From an uncultured Burkholderiales bacterium (GTDB taxonomy: Bacteria > Pseudomonadota > Gammaproteobacteria > Burkholderiales > Thiobacillaceae), in assembly GCA_937949525.1 (NCBI GenBank), contig CALEDT010000017.1, forward strand, positions 62,001 through 126,000: a stretch of 64,000 nucleotides of DNA, in the 5' to 3' direction. The translations under genes and the position numbers were made by a program. The notes under the pieces were generated by a model, which worked only from the letters and a program-made list of their open reading frames with translations, did no database searches and was not told where the DNA came from. Numbering within the stretch: position 1 is the stretch's first letter; each line of letters opens with the position of its first letter. This document shows, one piece after another, positions 55,674 to 64,000 of this stretch.

Positions 55674-56588
55674 ATGGACCTCGACACGCTCAACCAGCAA
55701 CACGCCATCGCCGACCGACTCCGCTTCATCGAGGGTCCGGGCGGCTTGCCCTTCGCCGAGATCGACAATGCGCTGGGCACCGCCTATCTGTGCCTGCAGG
55801 GCGCGCACGTCACCACCTGGCGGCCCAAGGATCAGGACGCACCAGTCGTATGGCTGTCGGATTACGCGCGCTTCGCGCCCGGCAAATCCATCCGCGGCGG
55901 CGTGCCGGTATGCTGGCCATGGTTCGGCCCGCACGCCAGCGAGCCTGGTTTTCCCGCGCACGGCTACGCGCGCACATCGATGTGGACGGTCACCACCAGC
56001 AGCACGCTGGACGACGGCCGCACGCGTATCGTGCTGACCCTGCCGGACAGCGACCAGACGCGCGCGCAATGGCCGCACCCCTGCCGGGTGGAACTCTCGG
56101 TCACGGTCGGCGCCAGCTTGGAGCTGGCGCTGACCACGCACAACCTGGGCGATGCGCCCATGCAACTGGGCGAGGCCCTGCACACCTATTTCCAGATCAG
56201 CGACATCGGTGCGGTACGCGTCACCGGCCTCGACGGCCGCGTCTACGTCGACAAGGTGGACGGCGGCGCGCGCAAAACCCAGACCGGCGCGGTCACCTTC
56301 GACGGCGAGGTCGACCGTGTCTACCTCGACAGCGACGACACCTGCGTGATCGAAGACCCCGGCCTGGGCCGGCGCATCGTCGTCGCCAAACGCGATTCGC
56401 GCGCCACCGTGCTGTGGACGCCATGGCGCGACAAAGCCGACCAGATGGGCGATTTCGGCCCCGACGGCTGGCGGCGCATGGTCTGCGTCGAGTCGGCCAA
56501 CGCCGTCGACAACGTGGTGACGCTGGCGCCGGGCGCCACGCACACGCTGTGGGCACGTTATCACGCCGAAGCCCTGCCGACGGCCTGA
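55674..56588 (+). CDS. D-hexose-6-phosphate mutarotase (YeaD type)
   Basis: A 304-residue aldose-1-epimerase-like protein that interconverts hexose-6-phosphate anomers. GAHVTTW, RGGVPVCWPWFGPH, the likely active His96 in HGYART, LGEALHTYF and MVCVESANAVD are the family marks. The ATG at 55674 matches typical N-termini; the open frame upstream overlaps hemF and is rejected. It sits between hemF and hemA. Confidence 0.9.
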   Translation: MDLDTLNQQHAIADRLRFIEGPGGLPFAEIDNALGTAYLCLQGAHVTTWRPKDQDAPVVWLSDYARFAPGKSIRGGVPVCWPWFGPHASEPGFPAHGYARTSMWTVTTSSTLDDGRTRIVLTLPDSDQTRAQWPHPCRVELSVTVGASLELALTTHNLGDAPMQLGEALHTYFQISDIGAVRVTGLDGRVYVDKVDGGARKTQTGAVTFDGEVDRVYLDSDDTCVIEDPGLGRRIVVAKRDSRATVLWTPWRDKADQMGDFGPDGWRRMVCVESANAVDNVVTLAPGATHTLWARYHAEALPTA

Positions 56589-56637
56589 GGACGGTTCGGC
56601 GTTGTCCCGCGTCAAGGCCATGGCCTGCGCTTCGCGC

Positions 56638-56643
56638 TACAAT
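56638..56643 (+). promoter_or_regulatory. Candidate -10 box of hemA
   Basis: TACAAT lies 34 bases before the hemA ATG in the 88-bp gap after the mutarotase gene. No good -35 box is found at 16-18 bp. It supports a possible separate hemA-prfA-prmC transcript, weakly. Confidence 0.35.
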
Positions 56644-56676
56644 GCGCGCCTCGCAATGCCTTGATTCGACGACGCA

Positions 56677-57930
56677 ATGCAGCTCTTCGCGTGTGGCGTG
56701 AACCATCACACCGCCCCGGTTGCGATCCGGGAGCGGGTGGCGTTCCCCCCCGACATCCTGCCGCGCGCGCTCGCCGACATCACCGGCGAGCGACGGCTGG
56801 CGCGCGAAGCGGCGATCCTGTCCACCTGTAACCGCACCGAGCTGTACTGCAACACGCAGGAGCCGGACGCGGTGGCCGACTGGCTGGCCGGCTTCCACGG
56901 CCTGTCACCGCGCGACGTCAAGCCCTATCTGTACCTGCTGCCGCGCGAGCAGGCGGCGCAGCATGCCTTCCGCGTGGCATCCGGGCTGGACTCCATGGTG
57001 CTGGGCGAGACCCAGATCCTCGGCCAGATGAAGCAGGCGGCGGAGAAGGCGCAGCGCGCCGGTACGCTCGGCCTGTTGCTCAACAAACTGTTTCAGCGCA
57101 CGTTCTCGGTGGCCAAGGAAGTGCGCACCGCCACTGAGATCGGCGCCAACACCGTGTCCATGTCGGCCGCCGCGGTCACGCTGGCGGAACGTATCTTTCC
57201 GTCCATCGCCGAACAGGCCGTGCTGTTCATCGGCGCCGGCGAGATGATCGACCTGGTGGCCACGCATTTCGCCGCGCGCCAGCCGCGCCGCATCATGGTG
57301 GTGAACCGCACCGTGGAACGTGCGCGCGACCTGGCCAACAAGTTCGGCGGCGAGGCTGCGGCGCTATCCAACCTGCCGGAAGTGCTGGCCGACTTCGACA
57401 TCCTGGTGACTTCCACCGCCAGCCCGCTGCCCATCGTCGGCCTGGGCATGGTGGAACGCGCCATCAAGCAGCGCAAGCACCGGCCGATGTTCATGGTCGA
57501 CCTGGCGGTGCCGCGTGACATCGAGGCCGAGGTCGGCGAGCTCGACGACGTGTTCCTGTATACCGTCGACAACCTGGGCGAAGTGGTACGCGCCGGCCAC
57601 GACAGCCGGCAGTCGGCGGTGACCCAGGCCGAGGCGATCATTCACGCGCGTGTGCACGAATTCATGCGCTGGATGGAGACCCGCCGCGCCGTGCCGGTGA
57701 TCCGCGACCTGCGCGACCACGGCGAGCGCATGCGCCGCCACGAGCTGGACAAGGCGCGCAAGGCACTGGCGCGCGGCGAGGATCCGCAGGCCGTGCTGGA
57801 AGCCATGAGCCGGGCGCTGCTCAACAAGATGCTGCACGACCCCAGCCACGCGCTGAACCAGGCCGACAGCCACGAGCGTGAGGAACTCGCGCGCGTGGTC
57901 TCGCGGCTTTACAACCTGCACAGTGATTAG
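56677..57930 (+). CDS. hemA: Glutamyl-tRNA reductase HemA
   Basis: A 417-residue enzyme forming glutamate-1-semialdehyde, the first step to haem. The nucleophile Cys51 lies in [27 protein letters not shown] and the NADPH motif [12 protein letters not shown] are typical. A C-terminal dimerisation helix ends it. No clear Shine-Dalgarno sequence precedes the ATG. It is followed by prfA, the usual gammaproteobacterial order. Confidence 0.96.
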
Positions 57931-57936
57931 CGGCCG

Positions 57937-57982
57937 GCCGGTCGCCGGTGATGCGCCCTGGCGTGCATCACCGGCGACCGGC
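57937..57982 (+). repeat. 18-bp inverted repeat before prfA
   Basis: GCCGGTCGCCGGTGATGC (57937-57954) pairs perfectly with 57965-57982 across a 10-base loop. It lies entirely within the 60-bp hemA-prfA gap. It ends 8 bases before the prfA ATG. There is no T-run after it. Confidence 0.9.
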
Positions 57983-57990
57983 GCCGCGGC

Positions 57991-59076
57991 ATGATGAACT
58001 CCGCCCTGCAAGACAAACTCGAACAGCTCGCGCTGCGCCAGGAAGAACTCGACCGTCTGCTGGCCGACGAGCGCGCCACGGCCGACCTGGCGCAGTACCG
58101 CAGGCTGCATCAGGAGCATGCCGAAATCGCGCCGGTGGTGGCCGGTTACCGCGCCTGGCTGCGGGCGCGCAACGATCTCGCCGCCGCCGAGGCGATGCAG
58201 GCCGACCCGGAACTGCGCGAGTTCGGGCGCGAGGAGGCGGACACGGCACGCGCCCGCCTCGGCACGCTGGAACGCGAGTTGCAGGTGCTGCTGCTGCCGC
58301 GCGACCCCGATGACGGCCGCAACCTGTTTCTGGAGATCCGCGCCGGCACCGGCGGCAACGAATCCGCGCTGTTCGCCGGCGATCTGCTGCGCATGTACAG
58401 CCGCTATGCCGAACGCCAGGGCTGGAAGATCGAGCCGATCTCGGTCAGCGCGGGCGAAGTGGGCGGCTACAAGGAAGTGATTTGCCGCGTGCTGGGCGAC
58501 GGCGCCTACGCCCGGCTCAAGTTCGAATCGGGTGGTCATCGGGTGCAGCGCATACCGGAGACCGAGACCCAGGGGCGCATCCACACCTCCGCCTGCACCG
58601 TCGCGGTGCTGCCGGAAGCCGACGCGCTCGGCGACATTGAGCTCGATCCGGCCGATCTGCGCATCGACACGTTCCGCGCCTCCGGCGCCGGCGGCCAGCA
58701 CATCAACAAGACCGATTCTGCGGTGCGTGTCACCCACCTGCCCAGCGGCCTGGTGGTGGAATGCCAGGACGACCGCTCGCAGCACCGCAACAAGGAGCGC
58801 GCACTGGCGGTGCTGGCGGCGCGGCTCAAGGACCGGCGCGATCGCGCCGCGCAGGCGCAGACGGCGAACACGCGCAAGAGCCTGATCGGCAGCGGCGACC
58901 GCTCCGACCGCATCCGCACCTACAACTTCCCGCAGGGGCGGGTCACCGACCACCGCATCAACCTGACGCTGTACAAGCTCGGTGCGATCATGGAAGGCGA
59001 CCTCGACGAACTGATCGCCGCGCTCACCGCCGCGCGCCAGGCCGAACTGCTGGCGTCCCTGGCCGGCGAAGATTGA
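57991..59076 (+). CDS. prfA: Peptide chain release factor 1
   Basis: A 361-residue factor ending translation at UAA and UAG. The PxT stop-recognition motif is P189-E190-T191, which identifies RF1 rather than RF2. The GGQ motif that triggers peptide release is at 234-236 ([10 protein letters not shown]). Complete. No Shine-Dalgarno sequence is visible; a strong hairpin occupies the place where one would lie. Confidence 0.96.
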
Positions 59077-59080
59077 CACC

Positions 59081-59968
59081 ATGGCCGGACACGCAGCCGC
59101 TTCCACGCACCGGCCCGCCGACACCATCGCCGGACTGCTGCGCCAGGCCGCGCAACGCCTCGCCGTTGCGTTGGTGCTCGACCGCGCCGGAGCCCGCATC
59201 GAAGCGCGCGCGCTGTGCGCGCACGCCCTGGGGGTCGAGGCCGGCTGGCTGCTGGCGCACGACCTGGAGCCGCTAACCGCGGCACAGGCTGCGGCCATCG
59301 AGGCCCTGATCGCGCGGCGCGAACGCGGCGAACCGGTGGCCTACCTCACGGGCACGCGCGAGTTCCATGGGCGCGAATTCGCGGTGACGCCGGACGTGCT
59401 GATCCCCCGCCCGGAAACCGAGCTGCTGGTCGGCCTGGCGCTGCAAATGGGCCCGGCCGACCGGCCGATCCGGGTGCTCGACATCGGCACCGGCAGCGGC
59501 ATCATCGCCATCACACTGGCGCTGGAACGGCCGCGCTGGCAGGTCAGCGCGCTCGATGTCTGCCCACGCGCGTTGTCACAGGCGCGTGCCAACGCCGCGC
59601 GGCTGGGTGCGCCGGTACGGTTTTTGCTCAGCGACCTGTTCTCCCACGTCGGGGACACGACGTTCGATCTGATCGTCAGCAACCCGCCCTATATCGCCCA
59701 AGACGACCCGCACCTGGGGCGCGGCGACCTGCGCTTCGAACCCGTGTTGGCATTGGCCTCCGGCAACAACGGTCTTGCGCTGATCGAACACCTGATTCAG
59801 ACCGCACCCAGTTACCTGGACAGGGGAGGCGCGTTGCTACTGGAACACGGCTGGCAACAGGGGGAGCAAGTGCGCGCATGGATGCACGCCGCCGGCTACC
59901 ACGACATTGCCTCACACCGCGATCTGGCCGGCTGGTCGCGCGTCACCGCAGGCCGCACGCTCTCGTAA
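59081..59968 (+). CDS. prmC: Release factor glutamine methyltransferase PrmC
   Basis: A 295-residue methyltransferase that methylates the glutamine of the RF1/RF2 GGQ motif. The substrate-binding NPPYIAQDD and the SAM motif LDIGTGSGIIAI are intact. PEPVAYLTGTREFHG is read here as EPVAYLTGTREFHGREF. It starts 4 bp after prfA, forming a functional pair. Confidence 0.95.
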   Translation: MAGHAAASTHRPADTIAGLLRQAAQRLAVALVLDRAGARIEARALCAHALGVEAGWLLAHDLEPLTAAQAAAIEALIARRERGEPVAYLTGTREFHGREFAVTPDVLIPRPETELLVGLALQMGPADRPIRVLDIGTGSGIIAITLALERPRWQVSALDVCPRALSQARANAARLGAPVRFLLSDLFSHVGDTTFDLIVSNPPYIAQDDPHLGRGDLRFEPVLALASGNNGLALIEHLIQTAPSYLDRGGALLLEHGWQQGEQVRAWMHAAGYHDIASHRDLAGWSRVTAGRTLS

Positions 59969-60014
59969 GGGCGCAAGCGGTTATCCTTGTGCACCCGCGA
60001 CTGCTCCCGACATC

Positions 60015-60281
60015 GTGTCCACCCATCCCCCACCCTCCTGGTACGTGCCCGCGCATGCCGATCTGGTCTGGCGCTGCTGGGGTGATGAATGCGTGGTGCA
60101 TCATCGGCTGAGTAACGACACGCACCGGCTGTCGATCATGGCGGCGGAAATCCTGATCGCACTGGCGCAGCAGGGCGAACTGAGCGAACAGGAACTGGCC
60201 AAGCGGCATGATCTGGCCAGCGAAGACGTGCGCACGATCCTGCAGCAGCTCGCGCAACTCGATCTGGTGCATGGGCGATGA
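60015..60281 (+). CDS. PqqD-like protein of an HPr-rel-A type cluster
   Basis: An 88-residue protein resembling the PqqD-family peptide chaperones found in the HPr-rel-A gene clusters. Its core reads DECVVHHRLSNDTHRLSIMA, followed by a winged-helix-like tail (EEDVRTILQQLAQLDLV, here SEDVRTILQQLAQLDLV). The frame has no ATG near the start; GTG at 60015 gives a sensible length. It overlaps the kinase gene by 4 bases. The family assignment is from recalled patterns; the molecular role is unknown. Confidence 0.75.
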   Translation: MSTHPPPSWYVPAHADLVWRCWGDECVVHHRLSNDTHRLSIMAAEILIALAQQGELSEQELAKRHDLASEDVRTILQQLAQLDLVHGR

Positions 60282-61180
60282 AGCTGGGCGAACTCGACGC
60301 CGCCACGCTGGCACGCCGTCTACGCCATGGCATCACGCTCATCACGGGCCCATTCCGCTTCCGGGTACGCAGTGCCTGCCCCAATGTCGCGCGTGGACTG
60401 CACACCCTGTATCCGGCGTTCACGGTCGAAGCGGACAGCGGCTTTCGTGATTTCCATGTTCGTGTCGATCGCGTCGCCGGTCTGCGTCGTTGGTTCAAGC
60501 CACAGGTGAATTTCTGGTACGACGCGCACAATCCATTCCTGCCGCTCGCCGCCAACCATGCTTATGCCCTGCTGGAATGGGGCATGAACTGGTGCATCGC
60601 CGGTCATGCCCATCATTATCTGCAACTGCATGCCGCCGTTGTGGAACGCAACGGCCAAGCGGTCATCCTGCCCGGCGACCCCGGCGCGGGCAAGAGCACC
60701 CTGACCGCCGCGCTGGCCTTGTCGGGCTGGCGCCTGTTGTCGGACGAAGTCACGCTCGTCGACCGTGACGATGGCCGGGTAGCGGCGTTGGCTCGTCCCA
60801 TCAGCCTGAAGAACCAGTCGATCGACATCATTCGCGCGTTCGACGCGCGCGCCGTATTCGGTGAGATCGCGCACGACACGCACAAAGGCACGGTCGCGCA
60901 TCTACGCCCGCCGGACGATAGCGTCGCGCGCATGCACGAAAAGGCGTCTGCCACCCACATCGTGTTTCCGCGCTGGCGTGCCGGCGTGCGCACCCGTCTG
61001 AGTCGGCACGCCAAGGCCGACGCTTTCATGCACGCCGCCAACCACGCGTTCAACTACAGCCTGCTCGGGCGCCGGGGCTTCGAGCTCAACGCCGACCTGG
61101 TCGAAGCCTGTGCCTGCTGGGACTTCGAATATTCGCGTCTGGACGAAGCGCTGCGCACGTTCGAGGACTTGACGCAATGA
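60278..61180 (+). CDS. HprK-related kinase A
   Basis: A 300-residue protein related to the C-terminal domain of HPr kinase/phosphorylase. The P-loop GDPGAGKST lies at 133-141, and LSDEVTLVD follows as in HprK. The N-terminal 110 residues have no HprK counterpart. HPr itself is not encoded nearby, so the substrate is unknown. It overlaps the genes on both sides by 4 bases, giving one translationally coupled block. Confidence 0.85.
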   Translation: MKLGELDAATLARRLRHGITLITGPFRFRVRSACPNVARGLHTLYPAFTVEADSGFRDFHVRVDRVAGLRRWFKPQVNFWYDAHNPFLPLAANHAYALLEWGMNWCIAGHAHHYLQLHAAVVERNGQAVILPGDPGAGKSTLTAALALSGWRLLSDEVTLVDRDDGRVAALARPISLKNQSIDIIRAFDARAVFGEIAHDTHKGTVAHLRPPDDSVARMHEKASATHIVFPRWRAGVRTRLSRHAKADAFMHAANHAFNYSLLGRRGFELNADLVEACACWDFEYSRLDEALRTFEDLTQ

Positions 61181-62301
61181 AGCACGCCTGCGCGCCGCTG
61201 CTCGACGCGCTGCGCGAGCCCGCGCGCATGGGTGCATTCGATGACGACACCTGGGACCGCGTCGTCCGCGTGGCCGAGGCAGCCGGCCTGCTCGGCCGTC
61301 TCGGGGCGCTGGCGCGCGACCTCGGCCTGCTGGCCGAACTGCCGTCCGCCGTCGCCCGGCACCTGTCGGCCGCCCTCAATCTCGCCGAGCAGCAACGTCG
61401 CTCGGTACTGTGGGAAATCGCGCATCTGCGCGCCGCGCTGCGTGATTTTCCCGGGCCGGTGGTGCTGCTCAAGGGCGCGGCCTACGCCGCCGCCGATCTG
61501 CCGCCGTCACGCGGACGGCTGTTTGCCGACATCGATCTGCTGGTACCCAAGGCGCTGATCGCGGAGGCCGAATCGGCGCTCATGCTGGCCGGATGGATCA
61601 CCAGCCATCACGACGCCTACGATCAACGCTATTACCGCGAATGGATGCATGAGTTGCCGCCCATGCGCCACCTGTTCCGCGGCACGGTGCTGGACCTGCA
61701 CCACGACCTGCTGCCGGAAACCGCGCGCCTGCGCACGCACGCCGATCGCCTGCTGGCGGCAGCGATACCCGTGCCCGGTGTGCCCGGTTTTGCCATTTTG
61801 GCGCCGGCCGACCAGGTGCTGCACTCCGCCACCCATTTGTTCCATGAAGGCGAATGGGAACACGGCCTGCGCGATCTGGTCGATCTCGACGCGCTGCTTC
61901 GCGCCTATGGCCACGACGACGCCTTCTGGCCGAGCCTGCTGGCCCGTGCCCGCGAGCTGAATCTCGGCCGTCCTTTGTATTACGCCTTGCGCCATGCGCG
62001 CGATCTGCTCGCCACGCCCATGCCGCCGGAACTGTCGGCAATCTGCCCTGACCAACCAGGCACACTGAGCCGGCCGATCATGAATAGCCTGCTGCGCGCC
62101 GCGTTCGCCAGCGCGCACCCCGATTGCCGACCGCCCGGCACCTTCGTCGCCGAGTTCGTGCTGTACGTGCGCAGCCATTGGTTACGCATGCCGGTTCACC
62201 TGTTGCTGCCCCATCTGTTGCGCAAGGCTTGGGTGAAACGGAAGGAGGCGCGTATGTCGAAAAACGAAACACCGCGAGGAAATCCCGACCTTGACGCGTG
62301 A
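61177..62301 (+). CDS. Nucleotidyltransferase-family protein (NTP_transf_5 type)
   Basis: A 374-residue protein of the uncharacterised nucleotidyltransferase group. The motif LLKGAAYAAADLPPSRGRLF and FADIDLLVP at about 98-126 form the putative Mg2+-binding DxD. HHDAYDQRYYREWMHELPPM and LDLHHDLLP follow, as in family members. Its substrate is unknown. It is the third gene of the HPr-rel-A type block, overlapping the kinase by 4 bases. The C-terminus is basic (RKAWVKRKEAR). Confidence 0.82.
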   Translation: MKHACAPLLDALREPARMGAFDDDTWDRVVRVAEAAGLLGRLGALARDLGLLAELPSAVARHLSAALNLAEQQRRSVLWEIAHLRAALRDFPGPVVLLKGAAYAAADLPPSRGRLFADIDLLVPKALIAEAESALMLAGWITSHHDAYDQRYYREWMHELPPMRHLFRGTVLDLHHDLLPETARLRTHADRLLAAAIPVPGVPGFAILAPADQVLHSATHLFHEGEWEHGLRDLVDLDALLRAYGHDDAFWPSLLARARELNLGRPLYYALRHARDLLATPMPPELSAICPDQPGTLSRPIMNSLLRAAFASAHPDCRPPGTFVAEFVLYVRSHWLRMPVHLLLPHLLRKAWVKRKEARMSKNETPRGNPDLDA

Positions 62302-62383
62302 TGTTCATGACCCGTAGGCGGCGGAGCAACGCTGCATCATGTCGGGATTCTTTACAATGCCACCTCGAACCGACACCGGACTC

Positions 62384-62412
62384 TTGAATAATCAAACAGT
62401 AATGCATATGGC
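62384..62412 (+). promoter_or_regulatory. Candidate promoter of the exported-protein gene
   Basis: TTGAAT at 62384-62389 and TATGGC at 62407-62412 are 17 bp apart within an unusually AT-rich 100-bp stretch. The site is 47 bases before the gene start. It could allow expression apart from the upstream block. Confidence 0.4.
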
Positions 62413-62458
62413 GTAAAACTTGCTTAAGAGACTGCAAAACCTTACGGAAGGTATCCAC

Positions 62459-63121
62459 ATGCACGACGAACGACCCCACTCGACGCAAGCGCCCGACCTG
62501 TCGCGCCGGCGTTTCACCAAAGGCGGCCTGGCGGCGCCGGTGGTCCTTGCAACACTCGCCAGCAAGCCGGTGCTGGGTGCGAGCTATCACTGCACGGTGT
62601 CCGGCAAGATTTCGGGCAACACCTCCGCGCCGCATGGCGACGGCTCCTGCACGGTCAGTGGCGCCAAGACCGCCGACACCTGGAGGAACACACCCATCAG
62701 CCAGTGGCCGGCCGAGGCAAAGAACGACGCCGGAACGAGCTCCCGCTCGTTCAAGAACACACCCAAGAACGGCTCGCTGAAATTCAGCAACGTGTACAAG
62801 AAGCCGGACAACGCGGATGCGCGCCTGATGGACGTGCTCACGTCCAATCTGAAGGCCGGCGCGCCCAATCCGGAACTGGGCAAGGAAGCGGTGGCCGCGA
62901 TGCTCAATGCCCTGAGCTTGGATGGCTTGGGCGGCCCCACCCATTTCCCGATCAGCGCCACCGAAGTGGCCCGACTGTTCAATGCCGTGGTCAACGGCGG
63001 CACGGTCGAACCCACCGCCACCTATCCTGGCAAGCGTTGGGGCGCAACCGAGGTGCTGACGTATTTCAAGTGCATCAACGGCACCGGATTCTGTCCGGTT
63101 ACCATTCCCTCGGTGACCTGA
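62459..63121 (+). CDS. Tat-exported cysteine-containing protein of the HPr-rel-A type cluster
   Basis: A 220-residue protein with a twin-arginine signal SRRRFTKGGLAAPVVLATLA (15-34). The likely cut is near residue 41. Four cysteines remain in the mature part: C45, C64, C205 and C212. The N-terminal mature segment reads CTVSGKISGNTSAPHGDGSC, then TWRNTPISQWP. This resembles secreted proteins I recall next to HPr-rel-A genes, but no family name is sure. GGAAGG lies eight bases before the ATG. It would fold before export; function is unknown. Confidence 0.72.
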   Translation: MHDERPHSTQAPDLSRRRFTKGGLAAPVVLATLASKPVLGASYHCTVSGKISGNTSAPHGDGSCTVSGAKTADTWRNTPISQWPAEAKNDAGTSSRSFKNTPKNGSLKFSNVYKKPDNADARLMDVLTSNLKAGAPNPELGKEAVAAMLNALSLDGLGGPTHFPISATEVARLFNAVVNGGTVEPTATYPGKRWGATEVLTYFKCINGTGFCPVTIPSVT

Positions 63122-63276
63122 TCCGACCCGCCTACCCAGATCGGATGCGTTTCATCGTCCGAATGGAGGTGCGGGTTGTGGCAGCCATGAGGCTCGACGG
63201 CCGGCCTCACCCGCGATCCGGAAAACGGCCGGCGGGCGAGAGGCCAAGCCTGCCCTAGCCCCTGCCGGCGCTGCCG

Positions 63277-64000
63277 TCAGCCCTGACGGTGATACCCCAC
63301 CACCACCTCCACCTCGTTCTTCGACCCCAGGATCACCGGCACGCGCTGGTGCAATGACTCCGGCTGCATGTCCAGAATGCGTTCATAGCCGGTAGAGGCC
63401 ATGCCGCCGGCCTGTTCGACAATGAAGCTCATCGGATTGGCTTCGTACATCAGGCGCAGTTTGCCGGGCTTGCTCGGATCCTTGGTGTCGCGCGGGTACA
63501 TGAAGATGCCGCCGCGGGTCAGGATACGGTGCACCTCGGCGACCATGGACGCCACCCAGCGCATGTTGAAGTCGCGCCCGCGCGGACCTTCCTTGCCCTG
63601 CAGGCATTCCTCGACGTAACGCTGCACCGGCGGTTCCCAGAAACGCTGGTTGGAGGCGTTGATGGCGAATTCCTTGGTATCGGCCGGAATCTTCATGTCC
63701 GGGTGGGTGAGCAGGAACTCGCCCACCTCGCGGTCCAGCGTGAAGCCGTTGACGCCGTGACCGGTGGTCAGCACCAGCATGGTGGACGAACCGTACAGGG
63801 CATAGCCGGCGCACACCTGCTTGACGCCCGGTTGCAGGAAGTCGGCCTCGGACGCAGCGCGGTTGGGCACCGGCGCGCGCAGGATGGAGAAGATGGTGCC
63901 GACCGAGATGTTGATGTCGACGTTGGACGAGCCGTCCAGCGGATCGAACACCAGCAGATACTTGCCCAGTGGGTACTTGTTGGGGATGGCATAGACCTCG
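63277..64000 (-). CDS. fbp: Fructose-1,6-bisphosphatase class I, partial
   Basis: The C-terminal 240 residues of a class I FBPase; the N-terminus lies right of the window. The metal-binding [20 protein letters not shown] core is seen in pieces ([11 protein letters not shown]). [27 protein letters not shown] and [15 protein letters not shown] are family marks. It serves gluconeogenesis and, in an autotroph, could serve the Calvin cycle. No other Calvin-cycle gene is in view. Confidence 0.95.

Follow-up and report, generated by a model that had tools for sequence, protein, structure and literature searches.

A Tat-Type Exported Protein Family as the Usual Partner and Very Probable Substrate of the HPr-rel-A Kinase, PqqD-Like, and NTP_transf_5 Proteins of Pseudomonadota

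Linkage of the Exported-Protein Gene to the Kinase

The stretch of DNA analyzed in this work (hereinafter, the window) spans 64,000 nucleotides of a contig of an uncultured Burkholderiales bacterium and harbors a block of four genes, all on the forward strand, coding, in this order, for a PqqD-like protein, an HprK-related kinase A, an NTP_transf_5 protein, and a protein with the features of twin-arginine translocation (Tat) export. The analysis revealed that the family of the exported protein is the usual partner of the kinase/PqqD/NTP_transf_5 system, an association that is new. There are strong grounds for considering the four genes as a real and widespread four-part system, in which the assignment of the substrate is strong and the chemistry is what we infer. 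The other three genes are of a type familiar from the tailoring of small peptides and are accompanied, in most of the loci analyzed, by the exported-protein gene; it is thus very probable that the exported protein is the target of their chemical modification, most likely through a phosphate placed on a serine close to its N-terminus ahead of export.

The kinase loci were retrieved from the genome of the window and 60 relatives, from the best 80 of 199 confirmed named genome loci, and from 398 Pseudomonadota genomes, the open reading frames (ORFs) being called in each stretch; of the 170 loci, 165 were distinct after removing exact duplicates of the kinase core only (5). An exported-family gene was considered near the kinase when it lay on the same strand with its start at most 4 kb upstream or at most 5 kb downstream, and the family profile, refined iteratively against a small set of ORFs surrounding kinase loci, was a permissive one. 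The first-pass annotation of the window had stated in advance that its reading would be refuted if the exported gene were seldom next to the trio in other genomes; this was not the case, an exported-family gene being found near the kinase in 144 of the 165 distinct loci, i.e., upstream in 124, downstream (the window layout) in 15, in two downstream copies in 4, and in two upstream copies in 1. Broken down by source, the linkage was observed in 30/32 loci of the relatives set, 74/75 named loci, and 40/58 phylum-wide loci; the NTP gene was near the kinase in 150/165 loci, and the median gap between the exported and PqqD genes was 9 bases (119 close-lying pairs). Two further loci with no kinase match (L078 and L084) are outside the 165, and exported copies from both are among the 148 family members considered below.

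Ten of the 21 loci without a near exported gene come from the same genome family (f63; L252-L260 and L262), six reach the end of their contig on one side (L077, L083, L158, L231, L243, and L263), and the remaining ones are L222, where the pair formed by the exported and PqqD genes is inverted, L224, L225, L237, and L247. In nine of the ten f63 loci, a different twin-arginine-type protein is encoded upstream on the same strand, having a RRALMLGAVGASAIVSIRPALAQ-like leader and another body; the twin-Arg pattern was matched in seven of these nine proteins, the other two being assigned by similarity. Once the type of partner (body, bodyless, f63, or none) was mapped onto a 164-tip kinase tree, 19 changes were counted, vs. 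a mean of 58 and a minimum of 50 in 500 shuffles; it follows that the types are inherited with the kinase and are seldom swapped. A side observation concerns L252-L260, in which the small f63 protein (RRALMLGAVGASAIVSIRPALAQ...CEIPVPDPG) replaces the exported gene upstream of PqqD.

At the genome level, the kinase is present in 61 of the 398 sampled Pseudomonadota genomes. A profile of body-type members of the exported family (alignment A3) matched 35 of the 398, and 32 of these 35 have the kinase vs. about 5.4 expected by chance (Fisher p 7e-27, not corrected for phylogeny, with the overlaps counted by eye from the match listings), co-occurrence beyond expectation being the check that the first-pass annotation had suggested. 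All the 32 profile matches reaching into the leader fall in kinase-bearing genomes. The three kinase-free matches (G340, G397, and G229) begin at profile position 67 or later, thus covering the body without the leader, in proteins of 288, 750, and 420 amino acids with other layouts; in the 288-residue protein, a stretch of the signal region also aligns, worthlessly (domain E 51). No A3 match at E<=0.001 was obtained in 29 kinase genomes, 16 of which do hold, by tally, a divergent member beside the kinase. A profile restricted to the body (A4) matched 13/398 genomes, 10 of them kinase genomes.

The Exported Protein and Its Serine Motif

The exported protein (62459..63121, +; 220 amino acids), proposed as the substrate from its linkage to the kinase and from inspection of its sequence, has twin arginines at positions 16-17 and four cysteines (45, 64, 205, and 212). 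It is, therefore, the Tat-type protein with four cysteines of the first-pass annotation; the Tat features (twin Arg, hydrophobic stretch, and small residue at the cleavage site) are all present. The conserved leader, RRRFTKGGLAAPVVLATLASKPVLG (residues 16-40; 62504..62578, +), comprises the twin Arg and the hydrophobic core, with a likely cleavage after VLG, and is still recognizable where the remaining protein diverges. R16 and R17 are found in 83/83 rows of alignment A3, whose rows were trimmed with a twin-Arg filter, which 148/153 family members pass, and were selected in part on the SG motif (83 used out of 93 listed); the leader model, in turn, was trained on the same sequences that it finds.

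No match to Pfam or NCBIfam was returned for the whole protein at E<=1, generic Tat model included, and no match emerged from a fold search against the PDB (best Foldseek E value 6.5; no VIA-align hit with Z>=2 in 43 chains). In the predicted model, the mean pLDDT is 48-50 per ten-residue block over residues 31-60 and 74-97 over residues 61-210. The body domain is carried by 108/148 members, a proportion that is no blind sample, the A4 profile having been built from 56 A3 rows; 38 bodyless members were aligned. The same domain (TPGYWK...W...LNA) was also seen, without a twin-arginine leader, in larger exported-looking proteins of kinase-free genomes (L299:2142-4394, L300:3935-4801, and L301:3-1265); the scan of one of the three, L299, gave no match to NCBIfam at E<=1e-10.

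The N-terminus of the mature protein carries the motif C45-T-V-S48-G-K-I-S52-G-N-T-S56 (62591..62626, +), proposed as the region of the phosphorylation site. The pattern C-x2-3-S-x3-S starts 20-40 residues past the first Arg in 93/108 body-type members, vs. 6/632 same-size windows further on, and occurs anywhere after the leader in 97/108. In alignment A3, whose rows were chosen partly on this motif, the conservation amounts to 83/83 for S48, 82/83 for S52, and 81/83 for C45. The low-confidence tail of the model (residues 31-60), in which the motif is embedded, is consistent with a flexible substrate arm. No serine motif is located next to the body in the three body-sharing proteins of kinase-free genomes, the 750-residue one (L299) showing one chance match 108 residues before the body.

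A different arrangement is found in the 38 bodyless members, which have a Ser in a C-terminal S-C-W-x-S stretch in 36 cases, near the mature N-terminus in 28, and at most ten residues ahead of the first post-leader Cys in 33; these positions had been hidden by a coarser alignment of 53 mixed members. The C-terminal Ser is a possible second modification site. The idea of one universal serine was rejected, since C-x2-3-S-x3-S belongs to the body type, the bodyless members keep other serines, and the f63 partners differ again. Examples of bodyless members with an S-C-W-x-S-F-like ending are L294:4887-5426 and L298:4692-5156.

The PqqD-Like Protein and the Rearranged Loci

The PqqD-like protein (60015..60281, +; 88 amino acids, GTG start) scores 43.8 bits against TIGR04353, the HPr-rel-A system PqqD family peptide chaperone (NCBIfam cut-off 35). 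Its AlphaFold model (pLDDT 94.5) consists of three strands followed by three helices, and its top five fold matches in the PDB are to TbiB1, a lasso-peptide RRE (recognition element of ribosomally synthesized and post-translationally modified peptides, RiPPs) with leader peptides (E 2.5e-4 to 9e-3, TM about 0.62-0.69), the seventh-ranked being another lasso B1-leader complex; both the succession of strands and helices and the match to structures of known RREs are thus those of an RRE. It is known that RRE proteins bind peptides. The single PF05402 PqqD-domain match over the cut-off in the genome of the window is located elsewhere, inside a 520-residue open frame of contig C8 (L001:1501-1680).

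The association of this protein with the exported one persists in five rearranged loci. In three genomes (G184, G325, and G129), the kinase stretch includes the NTP gene but neither PqqD nor the exported gene, and the latter two adjoin on a contig separate from the kinase; in L222, the exported-PqqD pair is inverted relative to the kinase, while in L095 it lies together, downstream of the kinase and NTP genes. The precursor and PqqD genes, hence, travel together, which is what would be expected of an RRE and its precursor. The fold match and these five loci strengthen the suggestion, put forward in the first-pass annotation, of a PqqD-like protein that hands the exported one over to the modifying enzymes, the two genes not adjoining in the window layout. 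As for other genomes with a divided set, the split in G231 is a contig break, and no exported gene was found in G082 (L231), which is cut by a contig end.

The Kinase and the NTP_transf_5 Protein

The kinase gene (60278..61180, +; 300 amino acids) overlaps the PqqD-like gene by 4 bases and is overlapped to the same extent by the NTP_transf_5 gene (61177..62301, +; 374 amino acids), both junctions being ATGA; the three products exceed curated family cut-offs, so that the trio is the one described in the first-pass annotation. The kinase scores 394.7 bits against TIGR04352 (NCBIfam cut-off 200). Its P-loop, PGDPGAGKST (60671..60700, +), is intact, as the same annotation stated, with P132, G136, G138, K139, and T141 invariant (alignment A1), and H118, K139, D156, and E157 are invariant across 12 homologues. 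The kinase aligns to HPr kinase/phosphorylase (HprK) over profile positions 120-178, having the P-loop core and the H/K/D positions in common, yet it is far below the cut-offs of the HPr kinase models, i.e., 24.5 bits against TIGR00679 (cut-off 240) and 23.5 against PF07475 (cut-off 33.3).

The claim that no HPr is encoded nearby was borne out, the one HPr match of the genome being on another contig (C49); moreover, a protein encoded on C3 scores 220 bits against the HPr-kinase model PF07475, over its cut-off. Since the genome possesses a separate HPr and a separate HPr-kinase-type protein, the kinase of the block need not serve HPr, and HPr was dropped as its candidate target. The NTP_transf_5 protein scores 193.9 bits against PF14907 (Pfam cut-off 31.2) and keeps the K-G...R...D-x-D signature, K99-G100, R114, D118, and D120 being invariant in 10 homologues; D118 and D120 presumably represent the metal-binding pair of the superfamily.

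Comparison with Known Systems

The kinase and PqqD-like proteins are already catalogued by NCBI as "HPr-rel-A" (TIGR04352 and TIGR04353): both are over the curated cut-offs, and the adjacent NTP_transf_5 gene, which also has a place in the NCBI definition, codes for a product over its family cut-off. No substrate is indicated in the HPr-rel-A entries retrieved, whereas the present analysis proposes a family of substrates. In the open-licence literature, no paper was found for the names and accessions of the system (HPr-rel-A, HprK-related kinase A, NTP_transf_5, TIGR04352, TIGR04353, and PF14907), nor was there any, among the matches listed and judging by title and start of the abstract, on the PqqD/RiPP/Tat/HprK/PEP-CTERM association.

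The closest parallels come from peptide pathways. According to a review (PMC9266682), knock-outs in the pseudomycoidin system assign the phosphorylation of a Ser to PsmK and the addition of a hexose onto the phosphate to PsmN. The paeninodin/pseudomycoidin-type lasso peptides covered by that text resemble the block in that an HprK-like kinase and an annotated nucleotidyltransferase act on a Ser of the precursor; they differ from it in that the substrate proposed here is a 220-residue exported protein with its candidate Ser near the mature N-terminus, the bodyless members also keeping a C-terminal one. A lasso macrolactam cyclase (C) and a B2 peptidase were not seen, by inspection, among the ORFs of 56000-64000.

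A study on linear polyphosphorylated peptides (LPPs; PMC13381572) reports that LppK, an HprK-like protein whose gene is clustered with that of an RRE, polyphosphorylates the core residue Ser3 (the core begins with AQSNWK), and states that LPPs are restricted to Bacillota, clusters being also reported in capsule loci. LPP clusters share with the block a discrete RRE, an HprK-like kinase, an NTP transferase, a precursor with a conserved N-terminus and a variable C-terminus, and the frequent vicinity of polysaccharide loci, whereas the block has a Tat-type leader, a predicted folded body, and a host belonging to Pseudomonadota. A SipW-like peptidase and an MsbA-like transporter were neither seen, by inspection, in the ORFs of 56000-64000 nor named among those neighbour families of the 165 loci that were scanned; as to the LPP leader motif, YxxPxVLxHQxIxFETxxS, the first 42 residues of the window protein include no Tyr, and inspection of sampled leaders revealed none. 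The peptidase, the transporter, and the YxxP motif not being seen, the block is not an LPP cluster. The N-terminal Ser of the bodyless members recalls the LPP site AQSNWK and their C-terminal Ser the lasso-peptide site. Lastly, PMC12710340 describes DUF2063-associated RREs with DUF2282 precursors, in which, as here, an RRE is paired with a precursor bearing an export signal; the family is another one, and the signal is Sec there and Tat here.

The statement of the first-pass annotation that the block is an undescribed pathway thus stands in part: the link to a proposed substrate family is new, but the kinase and PqqD are catalogued as HPr-rel-A, and sets of kinase, NTP transferase, and RRE are known in paeninodin-type lasso peptides and LPPs.

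A Possible Mechanism and Its Alternatives

By analogy with these systems, it is fairly probable that the tail of the exported protein undergoes RRE-guided phosphorylation, with a possible capping by the NTP_transf_5 protein, before Tat export. The block would by itself suffice to mature the exported protein: the PqqD-like RRE would hold the precursor by its conserved leader region, and the HprK-related kinase would phosphorylate, perhaps repeatedly, a Ser of the short flexible tail that follows the leader, Ser48 and Ser52 being the likeliest. The NTP_transf_5 enzyme might then put a group on the phosphate, which, by precedent, could be a sugar or a nucleotide. Phosphorylation would take place in the cytoplasm, and the folded, modified protein would leave via Tat, to be trimmed by an ordinary signal peptidase.

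Several data weigh against this proposal. The C-x-x-S motif proper is absent from the 38 bodyless members, whose modification site may thus be another one, and the kinase has D-E where HprK has D-D. In 17 of the 19 loci where the exported gene is only downstream, as in the window, PqqD lies beside the kinase and not beside the exported gene (the other two are L095, in which PqqD and the exported gene lie together, and L085, truncated by the end of its contig), and in G141 an exported gene occurs without PqqD in the 6.4 kb read. Once the kinase and NTP distances were removed (117 loci), no co-variation signal emerged: the partial correlation between PqqD and leader distances was 0.037, a value reached by 65/500 permutations, and that between PqqD and body was -0.075 (reached by 483/500); that between kinase and body was 0.47, the permutations covering the two PqqD values. 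The generic Tat signal model TIGR01409 leaves the window protein unmatched at E<=1 and matches 1/83 members at E<=0.01, so that the assignment to Tat is based on inspecting the sequence and on its conservation; in addition, the leader of the window protein is without a [Y/W]xxP motif. Finally, even in the LPP precedent, the deletion of the transferase gene lppN is reported to have had no visible effect (PMC13381572).

Among the alternatives, the NTP_transf_5 protein might attach a nucleotide (AMP/UMP-type) directly to the exported protein, the kinase making or removing the acceptor. The invariance of D118 and D120 in the 10 homologues would fit this hypothesis, and PsmN as a true nucleotidyltransferase is left possible in PMC9266682; however, the pseudomycoidin and LPP deletions show a kinase step, with hexoses going onto phosphorylated Ser, and direct nucleotidylation appears unlikely.

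It might also be that the trio modifies a small molecule or the polysaccharide of XrtA loci, the exported protein being a co-regulated user rather than the substrate. The stretch read includes one or more genes of the XrtA/PEP-CTERM exopolysaccharide set in 73/165 loci (neighbour families were single-linkage clusters, one representative of each being named), and an exosortase is found in 32/61 kinase genomes vs. 47/337 kinase-free ones. The exosortase link is a tendency, confounded by phylogeny, and 29/61 kinase genomes are without an exosortase match at E<=1e-10; the block of the window, whose genome has one exosortase match, is outside any polysaccharide locus. The peptide-binding nature of RREs, the permanence of the exported gene with PqqD in the five rearranged loci, and the occurrence of the serine motif behind the leader, but not before the body in the three leaderless relatives, also speak against a target other than the exported protein, which we regard as rather improbable.

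Two further hypotheses have very little in their favor. The PqqD-like protein could be a small winged-helix DNA-binding regulator of a regulatory operon, as the weak Pfam matches to TFIIE_alpha, MarR, and TrmB might suggest, all of which, like PF05402, are below the cut-off; its TIGR04353 score is over the cut-off and its model matches leader-bound RREs best, making this quite implausible. Equally implausible is a reading in which the leader is nothing more than a common Tat signal and the genes are neighbours by chance, through conserved gene order: the layout of the leader is the general Tat one, and at least one among hemA, prfA, prmC, and fbp is found again near the block of the window and at 24 other loci, but the linkage persists across quite different neighbourhoods, the pair persists at unlinked sites, and every leader-reaching match in the 398 genomes belongs to a kinase-bearing one.

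Returning to RRE-guided phosphorylation, a bolder and doubtful extension can be imagined, in which HPr-rel-A would be a RiPP-like pathway acting on a whole folded Tat protein, and a phosphosugar on its N-terminal Ser tail would covalently tie the exported protein to exopolysaccharide; this would explain the many copies in XrtA exopolysaccharide loci. The analysis proposes a substrate family and a specific serine motif for a catalogued set, present in 61/398 Pseudomonadota genomes, whose returned entries hold no substrate. If the proposal is true, RRE-guided tailoring would extend past small peptides to folded Tat-exported proteins, in a phylum from which LPPs, the nearest relative described, are said to be absent.

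Surroundings of the Block and Minor Observations

The exported gene is preceded by an AT-richer intergenic stretch (62302..62458, +), evident in the GC profile: the GC content is 0.46-0.48 over 62320-62499 (0.458 in 62320-62439), vs. 0.56-0.57 just before that stretch and 0.58-0.78 across most of the genes. The first-pass annotation had read it as the gene's own AT-rich promoter region; the AT-richness was recovered and the promoter was not, a scan of the stretch for sigma-70-like promoters giving 0 matches vs. 0.5 in shuffled sequences. The ORFs recognized by inspection within 56000-64000 are hemA, prfA, prmC, the block, and fbp, so that prmC and fbp flank the block.

In G141, where neither an NTP nor a PqqD match falls in the kinase stretch (L225), the lone exported gene (L295:719-1183) is followed by a gene for a 154-residue Cys-rich protein, which has no NCBIfam match at E<=1e-10 and which we take to be YkgJ-like. 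In G019, two exported copies are located mid-contig (L084:7079-8760), away from the trio, which lies at the end of another contig; this might reflect either an assembly gap or a true orphan pair.

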